The notes beneath the pieces are model-generated. The model worked only from the letters and a program-made list of their open reading frames with translations, was not told where the DNA came from and did no database searches. Position numbers and translations under genes: made by a program. DNA of 64,000 nt from Clostridiaceae bacterium DTU079 (GTDB taxonomy: Bacteria; Bacillota; Clostridia; Acetivibrionales; Acetivibrionaceae). The stretch is taken from NCBI GenBank assembly GCA_001512505.1, contig LFSC01000056.1, positions 8,160-72,159 of the forward strand. The letters run 5' to 3'. Below are positions 8,114 through 12,960 of this stretch, piece by piece (the stretch's first letter is position 1; the number at the start of each line of letters is the position of its first letter).

Positions 8114-9022
8114 TTATCCTGAAACATTGTCCCAATCGGGATTAAACTTAAACAGCTTGGAAGGCCTATGTCCAGCATCCTTGGTATACTCATTGGTCTC
8201 TATTACCATATCGGCTATTTTCCTTCTGAAATTGGCTTTTAAAAGCTCCGTATCAAGGATTATCTCATAAACCTGCTGAAGCTCCGTCAGGGTAAAACGG
8301 CTGGGCATAAGGTTAAACGCAATATCCGTATACTCTATTTTATTTCTAAGCCTTTCAATTCCGTATTGTATGACCTTTGCGTGGTCAAAAGCAATTCCGT
8401 GGGATTCAACAACCTCTCTTTTAATCCTTGCTATTTTTCCATCCACAGTCTTTTCCGTTTTCACGATTGCATAAAGCTCATCGTCATCATTGGATAGGGT
8501 TAGTCTAAACCACCGCTGTAATACATATCCGTTCTCGGTAACCGTCTTTTGCTCCTGATACATTTTGCACGATACGGTGAACCATTTTGCATCATCGGCA
8601 TCATCACTGGCCTTTATATCCAAGGTTGAACTGTCCACCAGGGACATATAGGAGGCACTTATCACTCTTGTACGGGGATCCCGGTCTACATCCCCCCATG
8701 TATAAAGCTGCTCCATATAAATATTATCAATGTTTGTCTCCTCTTTTAACTCCCTTAAAGCCGCCTCATCCAAACTCTCATTCATGTTCACAAAACCGCC
8801 GGGAAGAGCCCATTGACCGATAAACGGATGATCACCCCTTTTTATCATCAAAAGGCGCAAAACCTTTTTAGGAAGCTTTCTGTAATTTTCCTTTTCCTCG
8901 TCGGTAACGGTAAAGACCAGCATATCCACTGTGACTGACGGCCTTTCATACTTGCTGGCGTCGTAAGCCGATAAAAACTCCTCTTCTGTAAGTCCCTGCT
9001 TGTTAAGTATATTCTCACTCAT
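8114..9022 (-). CDS. Nudix hydrolase/NrtR-like regulator
   Basis: A 302-residue protein with an N-terminal Nudix domain and a C-terminal region rich in helix and beta-wing patterns (SRFTLTELQQVYEIIL, LLKANFRRKIADM) that resembles the winged helix of NrtR-family regulators. The Nudix box is complete (GFVNMNESLDEAALRELKEE, then TNI), so catalysis is possible. NrtR proteins repress NAD or sugar genes and use the Nudix fold to sense a ligand. The ATG at 9022 is preferred over the GTG at 9031 because GGGGTG lies 6 bases upstream. A strong promoter with a palindrome lies immediately upstream, which suggests autoregulation. Confidence 0.75.
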   Translation of the reverse strand: MSENILNKQGLTEEEFLSAYDASKYERPSVTVDMLVFTVTDEEKENYRKLPKKVLRLLMIKRGDHPFIGQWALPGGFVNMNESLDEAALRELKEETNIDNIYMEQLYTWGDVDRDPRTRVISASYMSLVDSSTLDIKASDDADDAKWFTVSCKMYQEQKTVTENGYVLQRWFRLTLSNDDDELYAIVKTEKTVDGKIARIKREVVESHGIAFDHAKVIQYGIERLRNKIEYTDIAFNLMPSRFTLTELQQVYEIILDTELLKANFRRKIADMVIETNEYTKDAGHRPSKLFKFNPDWDNVSG

Positions 9023-9053
9023 AATTATCACCCCAATGTTGATATCTTGCGTT

Positions 9054-9106
9054 TGATATTATCATTTTATTAATATCATTGTAATGTTTATAGACATATT
9101 TGTCAA
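9054..9106 (-). promoter_or_regulatory. Promoter with overlapping palindromic operator for the Nudix/NrtR-like gene
   Basis: On the minus strand TTGACA (9106-9101), a 17-base spacer and TACAAT (9083-9078) form a near-consensus sigma-A promoter. A perfect inverted repeat, TGATATTA-N9-TAATATCA, covers 9054-9078. It touches the last base of the -10 box and spans the expected start site. A repressor bound there would block initiation, and the gene product itself is the first candidate. Confidence 0.7.
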
Positions 9107-9459: not shown

Positions 9460-10851
9460 TTATTCCGATTCGAAAAAGAAGTGTGCTTCAGATTTGCTTT
9501 CAGCTTCCGGTTTTTGGGGTATCGCCTCAATAAACACCACCAGTTCCATTTCACCCGAATCCTCAAGTCTCTTTATCAAAATGTCTCCTCCCAGTTTCAT
9601 GGCAATCGCTTTTGCTTCAAACAGACCGATTCCGCTGCCTTCCTTGTTCACGGAATTGGAACCTCTCCAGAAGTTGCCAAATACAAAGGGAAGCTCCTTT
9701 TCCGGTAGCAATTCCCCTTTATTTCTTACAGAGAAAAAGAAGCCTTCGTCATTTTTTTCCGCACTGACCGTAATCCCCTCACCATTTCCGTACTTAATCG
9801 CATTTTCCATAAGCTGTGAAAGAATCCTCAAAAGGCCCTTCTTGTCAGAATTTATGATGGCATTGGTTTCTGTAGATATGGTAAATGGAATATGAAGTGT
9901 TTTCAATCTGTTTTCATATTCGGCTCTAATGCAGTCCAACAATTCCGTTACATAAAATGACTCAGGGCTGGGTTCAAATGCAACCATGCCGCTTGTAGTA
10001 TTCTCTAATATCATTTTTACCAAGTCTATAATTTCATCTGCATTTTTTTCTATCTTTCGGGCAATGACCGCATCCTTTTCATCCGGTACACCGTCCTCCC
10101 GATACAGTCCCGTCTCAATGGCAGATGCATACAGCTTCACATTGGAAACGGGAGTTTTTATTCCATGGACCAGGGTGGTAAGCATCGTCTGCCTTTCATA
10201 TAACAGTTTATCAATATGCTTTCTGTCACTCTGAATCTTGTCACTGAGCATATTAATTCCCCATATAAATTTCCCGAAATACCTGTTCTTCGATTCGGGA
10301 AGCTTTTCCGCCATATATCCCTTGGATAATCTCTCCGGATATTCTGAGAATTTTAAAAACGGATATATAACCGCTTTTTGTATGAAAATCAAAAAAGAAA
10401 TAAGCAGCAAAAAGCCGGCAGCCAATACCGCATTCATATATACCTTCAAAGCTTTTGAATTGCTGTCTGCATATACAAAAAGAAGAAATCCGGCATTTTC
10501 GCCATTTTTATTCTTTATAGTCGCCAGCCGCTGGTTCCCGCTAAATGAAACGAGTTCGGCATCAGAGGTATTGCCGTCCAGAAACAGAATATTTTCGGGA
10601 AGCTCCTCTTTGCTGTATTCATTTTTATACTGCTGTTGATTATCAAGATAAATATTCCGGATTATTTCATTTACATCAGGATATTCTTCATTAAAGTACT
10701 GCCTCTGGACCTGTGTGAAAATACGATTGATAAATATATTTCTGATGTCTGTCTTTTGGGCTATCCCGCGGTCAAAAAATATATTTGCCAGAATTACAAT
10801 TGTCACATATACCAGACACGGCACTATAAACAGATATTTCAACCGTTTCAT
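9460..10851 (-). CDS. Sensor histidine kinase
   Basis: A 463-residue membrane sensor kinase. Two membrane helices (about residues 5-26 and 139-160) bracket an extracytoplasmic sensor region of about 110 residues. The phosphoacceptor block is MLTTLVHGIKTPVSNVKLYA (HGIKTP instead of HExRTP), and the ATPase domain has the N-box QLMENAIKYG, VFGNFWRG and GSGIGLFEAKAI. In the G1 position the usual DxG is NKG, which is common in VanS-like kinases. The start overlaps the response regulator stop by 4 bases (ATGA). The tail SESKSEAHFFFESE is of no known role. Confidence 0.87.
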   Translation of the reverse strand: MKRLKYLFIVPCLVYVTIVILANIFFDRGIAQKTDIRNIFINRIFTQVQRQYFNEEYPDVNEIIRNIYLDNQQQYKNEYSKEELPENILFLDGNTSDAELVSFSGNQRLATIKNKNGENAGFLLFVYADSNSKALKVYMNAVLAAGFLLLISFLIFIQKAVIYPFLKFSEYPERLSKGYMAEKLPESKNRYFGKFIWGINMLSDKIQSDRKHIDKLLYERQTMLTTLVHGIKTPVSNVKLYASAIETGLYREDGVPDEKDAVIARKIEKNADEIIDLVKMILENTTSGMVAFEPSPESFYVTELLDCIRAEYENRLKTLHIPFTISTETNAIINSDKKGLLRILSQLMENAIKYGNGEGITVSAEKNDEGFFFSVRNKGELLPEKELPFVFGNFWRGSNSVNKEGSGIGLFEAKAIAMKLGGDILIKRLEDSGEMELVVFIEAIPQKPEAESKSEAHFFFESE

Positions 10852-11537
10852 TTTTCAATACTTCCTCCGAATTTGTATCCGATCTTCCATATTGTCTGAA
10901 TGAGTACCGGATTTTTCGGATCCTCCTCCAGCTTCTCTCTCAGCCACCTTATGTAAACCGTCAAGGAGCCCATCTCACTGAAACAGTCAGCACCCCACAC
11001 CTCATTGAACAGTACTTCTTTTTTAATAACCTTCTCAGGATGCTTCAGAAAATATTCCAGTATATCAAATTCCTTGCCGGTAATGTTTATCTGCCTGTTA
11101 TTTTTGAAAACGGTCCTGTCGTTTACATTCATCGAAATATCGCCATAAGTTAGAATCTCCTTGTTCTCACGCATATCATAGCTTCTTCGTATAAGGGCCT
11201 TGATCTTTGAGGATAGAACCGGAAAGGAAAAGGGTTTATCGATATAGTCATCGGCGCCTACCTCCAGCCCCAGAATCTTGCTCTGATCATCAGTTTTCGC
11301 ACTCATCATCAGAACCGGTATCCCATGCTTTTTGCGGAGCTGCTGAAGTGCTCCATAGCCATCCATTCCCGGAAGCATGACGTCAAGAAGCAGAATCTTA
11401 AATGCTGCTTTCTCAAGCAACTTAAGTCCTTCTTCAGCACTGGTCTTCCATTCCACCGTATACCCGTCCCTTATGAGAAAATCCCTGATAAGAATACCAA
11501 GTTCTTCATTATCCTCAATAATCAGAATATCCTGCAT
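10848..11537 (-). CDS. OmpR-family response regulator
   Basis: A 229-residue receiver plus winged-helix DNA-binding protein. The receiver shows IIEDNEE (acidic pocket), LLLDVMLPGMDG (phosphoacceptor Asp), MMSAKTDD and IDKPFSFPVL. The C-terminal domain includes NITGKEFDILEYFLKHP and SLTVYIRWLREKLEEDP, typical of OmpR/PhoB proteins. The ORF track runs to 11591, but the ATG at 11537 begins at the natural start MQDILIIEDN and has GAGGAA 7 bases upstream. The lipoprotein stop is 2 bases away, so translation is probably coupled. Confidence 0.88.
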   Translation of the reverse strand: MQDILIIEDNEELGILIRDFLIRDGYTVEWKTSAEEGLKLLEKAAFKILLLDVMLPGMDGYGALQQLRKKHGIPVLMMSAKTDDQSKILGLEVGADDYIDKPFSFPVLSSKIKALIRRSYDMRENKEILTYGDISMNVNDRTVFKNNRQINITGKEFDILEYFLKHPEKVIKKEVLFNEVWGADCFSEMGSLTVYIRWLREKLEEDPKNPVLIQTIWKIGYKFGGSIEK

Positions 11538-11538
11538 G

Positions 11539-12960
11539 CTATTCCTCATTCCTATAGTACGTCCCCACATCAATAAAATCCGGTTTGTCAATTACTCCTT
11601 CAGTTCTGGTAAATGCAACCTGAATGTTTCCGGTTTCATAGTCCACAATAATAAGATCAACCGTTCCGGAACTATGTATATTCACAACATCATACTGATT
11701 TACTTTTTCACCTGTAATCAAGTTCTTGACATCAGTCACTGAGAATTTATCTTTCCCGCTTACCAATTGGTTGTATTTTGCCCATCGGACAATATTGTTT
11801 TCATTGCCAGCAAAGCCGTCCTGGTTTCCTTTTGCAGCATAAGAATTAACCACGCATAAGCTATCCCTGCTGTCCCATGAAATTCCGTTCATGATCGGAG
11901 TATTTTCATCTCTTAATATCGAGAAACCCTTACCCGCATCAGAAACTTCCTTCACACAGTTTTCTGCGCAGTATGAACTATTCTCATCTGTGATAATCAG
12001 ATTATGGCAAAAGGTGTAATCCCCGCTGTTTTCCACTATATAACTACCCACATCTTTTGCATTTTTGTACATCTCAAGAGCATGTCTGATATCAAAAGTA
12101 TAACACTTTTTGCCCTCGGAAACAAAGGGCATTTGTGAAACAGATCCGACATCCAATATTGCCGCAAAAACACCGTCATCATTTATCGCTGAGATGATAT
12201 CAAATAACCCAAGCATCCCTATACTTGTAAAGGATTTGTCTCCATTTTTAAAATGTGTTACTGCATTCACAAAGCCTAACTGATTCTCACTTCCAAGTGA
12301 CCATTCGAGAACCCGTAATGTAATCGGCTTCCCGCTTTCGGTTTTGTCTCCCCACAGAGACAGGGCGCTGCATGACGTAGGCCTTAACGCATCGGGAACC
12401 ATCTGGATTATTATGGCTTCCTCGTAACTTAGCACTCCATCCTCATTAAATCCATGTATCCCGCCTGAAATACGCCCGGCATATCCGCTTAATTCTTCTT
12501 TGTACCTTTTATCCAGACTTTCAAAGAGGGTATACATTCTCTCTTCCACTGCAGATGCTTCATATGTATTTCCACCAAATGCAACCCTGATATTTTCATA
12601 AATATAAGGCTCCATTATTTTAGGATAATCCGGGAAAGCCTTTAGAATCATTTCAGCATATGCAGTGCCAACTTCACCGGGAGTTCCGTTTTCATAATCG
12701 AGAGTCACATCATAATACTCTTTATACACAATTATGGAACAAAGTTCATTTTCCGATTTATACTCTGCTATATACGTAGGAGTAATCCCCTCATTGGTAT
12801 AAGTTTTCTGCTGAGATGTTTTATAAGAATCGACCGGGACAAGGCTCGATTCATCTCCTTTAGGAATCACAAAATCTGTATATGAGGGTGCGCCGTTTGA
12901 ACACCCGGTTAGCATCAAAATAAAACATAACAAAATCAACAATAAACTCTTTTTATTCAT
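11539..12960 (-). CDS. Lipoprotein with an Ntn-hydrolase (C45/acyltransferase-like) domain
   Basis: A 473-residue predicted lipoprotein. The signal peptide ends in the lipobox LTGC (Cys20). A region of about 175 residues follows, then PTSCSALSLWGDKTESGKPI, which resembles the Cys nucleophile region of C45/choloylglycine-type Ntn hydrolases (Cys197 as candidate nucleophile). Supporting blocks further on are AINDDGVFAAI and MNGISWDSRD. Such enzymes often mature by self-cleavage before the Cys and act on amide bonds. The gene overlaps the transporter remnant upstream by 8 bases and precedes the response regulator by 2, so it belongs to this sensory operon. Substrate unknown; the family call rests on motif recall only. 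Confidence 0.6.
   Translation of the reverse strand: MNKKSLLLILLCFILMLTGCSNGAPSYTDFVIPKGDESSLVPVDSYKTSQQKTYTNEGITPTYIAEYKSENELCSIIVYKEYYDVTLDYENGTPGEVGTAYAEMILKAFPDYPKIMEPYIYENIRVAFGGNTYEASAVEERMYTLFESLDKRYKEELSGYAGRISGGIHGFNEDGVLSYEEAIIIQMVPDALRPTSCSALSLWGDKTESGKPITLRVLEWSLGSENQLGFVNAVTHFKNGDKSFTSIGMLGLFDIISAINDDGVFAAILDVGSVSQMPFVSEGKKCYTFDIRHALEMYKNAKDVGSYIVENSGDYTFCHNLIITDENSSYCAENCVKEVSDAGKGFSILRDENTPIMNGISWDSRDSLCVVNSYAAKGNQDGFAGNENNIVRWAKYNQLVSGKDKFSVTDVKNLITGEKVNQYDVVNIHSSGTVDLIIVDYETGNIQVAFTRTEGVIDKPDFIDVGTYYRNEE

Follow-up and report, generated by a model that had tools for sequence, protein, structure and literature searches.

A probable NrtR-family repressor of NAD salvage genes with a tandem-unit operator in an Acetivibrionaceae genome

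Introduction

NrtR regulators, described from Shewanella oneidensis (3gz5, 3gz6, 3gz8), Mycobacterium smegmatis (MsNrtR, PMC6800001) and Streptococcus (PMC12735969), combine a Nudix effector domain with a winged helix of the same type as in the protein described here, and, as appears to be the case here, they control NAD genes. ADP-ribose releases the NrtR proteins of Shewanella and Synechocystis (cited in PMC4666351), M. smegmatis (PMC6800001) and S. sobrinus (PMC12735969). The fold and winged helix are shared by AraR of Bacteroides (5bs6, 5dd4, 5deq; PMC4666351). NadQ of Agrobacterium (7q91-7q94), by its deposited name a regulator of NAD metabolism, has a matching winged helix, to which the sequence match is limited, and gives a lower TM-score. 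We describe a member of the NrtR family from a member of the Acetivibrionaceae, the operator that it probably reads, and the genes that this operator precedes.

Results

Domain structure of the Nudix protein

The gene lies in a 64,000-nucleotide stretch of DNA (the window), to which all unprefixed coordinates refer. The features of the protein are:

8114..9022, minus strand: nrtR-like gene, 302 amino acids, with ATG at 9022 and an alternative GTG start at 9031
8729..8797, minus strand: Nudix box, residues 76-98, GFVNMNESLDEAALRELKEETNI, with E82, R90, E91, E94 and E95 present and Gly97 replaced by Asn
8399..8569, minus strand: codons 152-208, part of an extra four-strand beta-meander (AlphaFold model; profile and Foldseek comparison with 3gz6 and 5bs6)
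8144..8320, minus strand: NrtR-type winged helix, residues 235-293 (Pfam PF21906; model helices 245-256 and 262-272)

The N-terminal Nudix domain expected of NrtR matches PF00293 at 63.8 bits (cut-off 21.1), the C-terminal winged helix matches NrtR_WHD (PF21906) at 78.7 bits (cut-off 27), and this is the sole NrtR_WHD protein in its genome. The score against the equivalog NF050029 (ADPR responsive repressor) is 180.2 bits, far below the cut-off of 400, which makes the protein an NrtR family member outside that orthologue group; the assignment to NrtR stands. An earlier note on this DNA had proposed an NrtR-like C-terminal winged helix, and both the PF21906 score and a fold match to 3gz6 bear it out. 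It had also proposed a full Nudix box, which holds for every Glu and Arg position: the consensus GX5EX7REUXEEXGU corresponds to G76-E82-R90E91-E94E95, and the consensus Gly position is occupied by Asn97, so the box is complete in its catalytic and metal-binding residues without being letter-perfect.

The AlphaFold model (pLDDT 89.2, pTM 0.89) matches the fold of NrtR and AraR, with TM-scores of up to 0.80 by target length in Foldseek. Four extra strands in the model (142-162, 165-177, 182-194 and 197-208) form a sheet between the Nudix and winged-helix domains, and the solved NrtR and AraR chains show an alignment gap across it. One might guess that this modeled sheet acts as a spacer or as a dimer contact.

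An operator built from 11-bp units

The region ahead of nrtR contains:

9101..9106, minus strand: -35 box TTGACA, at the same position across the aligned promoters of relatives
9078..9083, minus strand: -10 box TACAAT, with a 17-bp spacer to the -35 box; TATAAT in most relatives
9068..9078, minus strand: operator unit 1, TGATATTAATA, a 10/11 match to TGWTAnTAWCA
9054..9064, minus strand: operator unit 2, TGATAATATCA, an 11/11 match, 14 bp after unit 1
9040..9050, minus strand: possible degenerate third unit, GCAAGATATCA, in the 14-bp phase, a weak 7/11 match (8/11 in the nearest relative)

The TTGACA-N17-TACAAT promoter reported earlier, with a perfect palindrome whose first base is also the final base of the -10 box, is present on the minus strand at 9106-9054; the palindrome itself, 8-N9-8 in form (TGATATTA-N9-TAATATCA), occupies 9078-9054. 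A scan of the 3.1-Mb genome found its exact form once and no further copy at one mismatch. With up to three mismatches it proved uninformative as a search probe (89 places versus 61 in the control). Directly upstream of nrtR are histidine kinase and response regulator genes (9460-11591, minus strand), where this operator shows no trace.

In orthologues 70-94% identical, drawn from three genera of the family, the promoter is mostly unchanged, and the sequence that follows the -10 box is TGATAnTAACA-N3-TGATAATAWCA. The left and right units vary independently of each other and of the N9 palindrome, and what relatives have in common is an 11-bp pseudo-palindrome, TGWTAnTAWCA, repeated every 14 bp. 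The unit comes close to being its own reverse complement, so that a pair forms a 25-bp two-fold operator, and the palindrome is, judged from these promoter sequences, one sequence solution of a two-unit pair. The palindrome of the earlier note is therefore real as sequence but is not the conserved element, and we have replaced the single-palindrome reading with an array of units. Whether copies of the operator occur upstream of orthologues had been set beforehand as a refuting test, and copies were found.

Across 66 promoters, unit pairs at 14 bp number 57, versus 0.3 in dinucleotide-preserving shuffles, and pairs at 28 bp number 15, versus 0.35. After removal of orthologues more than 80% identical, the 14-bp pair is found in 21 of 40 promoters, and each other distance from 8 to 27 bp in at most four. 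The window promoter has two units, most relatives have two or three, and some have four or five if weak ones are included; a longer run of units seen by eye at locus L120 is not claimed, as the scoring threshold recovered two at most. In 27 aligned promoters from the window's group the full 25 bp are conserved and information drops sharply beyond them. The operator is lineage-specific, because orthologues in Caldicoprobacter, Solobacterium and some other lineages have no array despite an adjacent pncB. Three Solobacterium orthologues (L165-L167) have a different palindrome immediately ahead of nrtR, beside the start codon (CTATATAGTCAAATTGACTATATAG in L165), with pncB nearby in two.

A probable second target: the unlinked pncA-pncB genes

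The pattern TGWTAnTAWCA-N3-TGWTAnTAWCA, at one mismatch, occurs in the window's own genome in exactly two places, the nrtR and pncA promoters. No place was found at two mismatches, and the remaining places at three are noise (seven forward versus seven control in all). The genome scan that the earlier note had recommended accordingly returns the known site alone in its exact N9 form, and the pncA promoter as well in its two-unit form. The probable second target, unlinked to nrtR, consists of a gene for an isochorismatase-superfamily amidase (pncA) followed by one for nicotinate phosphoribosyltransferase (pncB). PncB scores 749 bits against a curated cut-off of 469. PncA has an Isochorismatase domain (76 bits) and passed none of the nicotinamidase equivalogs (24.7 bits against a cut-off of 174); by eye it shows the D-x-H...P-x-H-C arrangement and catalytic Cys of nicotinamidases, and from superfamily, motif residues and gene order we regard it as a putative nicotinamidase-like enzyme. 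The same genome contains nadA, and a genome search found no NiaR-type 3H repressor. It had been remarked that no NAD or sugar gene is adjacent to nrtR, which for NAD genes is true locally, but the link to NAD runs through the operator on the distant pncA-pncB.

The regulon in related genomes

Where relatives have a separate pncA promoter, it carries the same element in the same place. In three genomes of a sister genus, and at loci L108-L111 and L113-L115, nrtR, pncA and pncB form one operon, and nrtR-pncB occurs at about 10 more loci in further lineages. A 30-bp pattern spanning promoter and operator (TATAATGATANTAACANNNTGATAATAWCA, at most two mismatches, with the reversed pattern as control) matched 34 places in 58 genomes of the order, versus none in the control. 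All 30 loci examined lead nrtR, pncA-pncB, PARG-pnuC, macro-pnuC or SPFH/NAD-kinase-like genes, and no pentose gene was found among them. At L194, L207 and L209 a macro-domain or PARG gene and pnuC, for a riboside transporter, share the promoter-operator. The conserved operator ahead of NAD-metabolism genes that typifies NrtR is found here through pncA-pncB, pnuC and PARG. Outside the group, orthologues adjoin PARG, NADAR, ADP-ribosylglycohydrolase, KptA, another phosphoribosyltransferase, or nadE. As read from this gene content, the order-wide regulon is one of NAD salvage and ADP-ribose handling.

Several loci deserve separate mention. At L100:7516-9574 the full NrtR promoter-operator stands ahead of a SPFH (Band 7) gene, and the next gene is distantly NAD-kinase-like (22.8 bits, below cut-off); this may be a third target, in one relative. 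At L117:6821-9593 nrtR leads a run of genes for ADP-ribose handling: NADAR, PARG, ADP-ribosylglycohydrolase and KptA. Genome G001 has a second full-length nrtR (L019), 70% identical to the first and about 34 kb from it, with its own variant operator, and in G004 a Nudix region 43% identical lies inside a 662-aa open frame (L021), the match spanning residues 12-227 only.

In one genus (g3), two-unit-like elements (AATGATAATATYANNATGATAATAAGA) are found near genes that by eye are xylanase- or esterase-like (L032, L033, L042, L043, L049). Among elements of this kind, those of one genus are located 200-300 bp ahead of xylanase-like genes, and another falls within or close to such a gene in a genome that gave no NrtR match. 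The element alone is thus not perfectly specific, and those linked to xylanase-like genes are perhaps the site of another regulator.

Catalytic residues among orthologues

E82, R90, E91, E94 and E95 are all kept in 33 of 61 orthologues. In a clade of Clostridium, Paenibacillus and relatives, E94 is lost, and E91 partly, with the same operator retained. The glutamate losses are clustered and need two changes on the tree, which points to one main loss and not to a repeated pattern. The residues are intact in 18/18 orthologues adjoining pncB versus 15/43 of the others, a difference confounded by descent, and we do not take it as a functional link.

Discussion

How might a Nudix protein control salvage genes that are nowhere near it? 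We propose that it is in all likelihood an NrtR-family, autoregulated repressor, released by ADP-ribose, of nrtR and of the unlinked pncA-pncB salvage genes, a scheme in which binding, direction of control, ligand and hydrolysis are what we infer. The sequences themselves show how promoter and operator are built, that they are conserved, which genes belong to the regulon, how the domains are arranged and that the catalytic residues are intact. NrtR dimers would bind an operator of 11-bp half-operator units, spaced every 14 bp and running from the -10 box across the transcription start, and would shut both promoters. The pncA-pncB route would convert nicotinamide into nicotinate and then nicotinate mononucleotide. 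NAD turnover would raise ADP-ribose, or a close relative, which on entering the Nudix pocket would displace the winged helices and open both promoters, after which autoregulation of nrtR would restore repression. By analogy with the described NrtR proteins, ADP-ribose is the most likely releasing ligand. With its catalytic glutamates intact, the protein may in addition cleave its ligand and so reset itself. The self-repression suggested in the earlier note is very probably correct.

Could something other than NrtR read the operator? If a different regulator acted at nrtR and pncA-pncB, the Nudix protein would be merely an ADP-ribose hydrolase within the regulon, with which its intact catalytic residues would agree, as would the elements near xylanase-like genes, one of them in a genome where NrtR is missing. 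We consider this unlikely, since the protein has the full NrtR winged helix, its genome has no NiaR-type repressor, and G006 and G008, which have no full NrtR match, gave no promoter-operator match in a stricter search. In Paenibacillus, Lederbergia and Clostridium, moreover, the array precedes an nrtR that has no such pncA/pncB pair beside it, and it persists where Nudix residues are lost, which favors NrtR itself as the reader.

That the element is no protein operator at all, but forms the first part of a structured transcript or is simply an A+T-rich feature of the promoter, has in its favor that it overlaps the -10 box, is A+T rich, and has two units able to pair as a hairpin. Conservation that extends over all 25 bp and includes defined G and C positions, unit spacing fixed at 14 bp, arrays of three to five units that keep no single hairpin, and absence of the pattern from the reversed control make this extremely unlikely. 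The Acetivibrio group degrades plant polymers, and a single-sequence comparison of the protein with the PDB puts AraR first, so that a response to sugar, like that of the Bacteroides AraR/XylR branch, with a secondary NAD link, has also to be weighed. It is very unlikely, as the regulon is one of NAD salvage and ADP-ribose metabolism throughout, with no pentose gene in the 30 loci, and as the window protein keeps the Nudix glutamates, of which AraR has lost two or three (PMC4666351).

The tandem operator suggests a possible route to cooperative dimer binding. We can extend this, though we would sooner doubt than expect it, to a phased stack of dimers on units 14 bp apart, in which each unit would be common to two overlapping dimer sites and unit number would set the repression threshold; the catalytically intact clade would destroy the ligand that it senses, giving a self-resetting timer, and its sister clade, which shares the operator, would have become a pure sensor. 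The two sister clades, sharing one operator, with the metal-binding glutamate kept in one and lost in the other, constitute a natural experiment in which the role of hydrolysis in Nudix-based sensing is directly testable. A concrete regulon is now available for an apparently uncharacterized NrtR branch in Bacillota; our search, which did not take in the original NrtR paper, found no papers on NrtR in Acetivibrio, C. thermocellum or Paenibacillus.

Comparison with known systems

The closest match by profile (173 bits) and by fold is the MutT/nudix family protein of Enterococcus faecalis (2fml), which likewise has an intact Nudix box but is shorter (273 aa), with a weak winged-helix match. AraR senses L-arabinose, controls arabinose genes and has lost its Nudix box (PMC4666351), unlike the window protein, which has an NAD regulon and retains E82, E91, E94 and E95. 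The AraR dimer covers 25 bp (PMC4666351), the length of the two-unit operator, but the tandem AraR operators are two 21-bp sites 3 bp apart, each a whole dimer site, unlike 11-bp units at 14 bp. NrtR of M. smegmatis is autoregulated (PMC6800001), as nrtR here appears to be, and the mycobacterial operator, at 23 bp (PMC6800001), is similar in length to the 25 bp found here. The Nudix glutamates, degenerate in the NrtR proteins of M. smegmatis (PMC6800001) and S. sobrinus (PMC12735969), are intact in the window protein, which compared with known NrtR proteins adds a four-strand sheet between its domains and has as its probable operator a chainable 11-bp unit with a 14-bp period.
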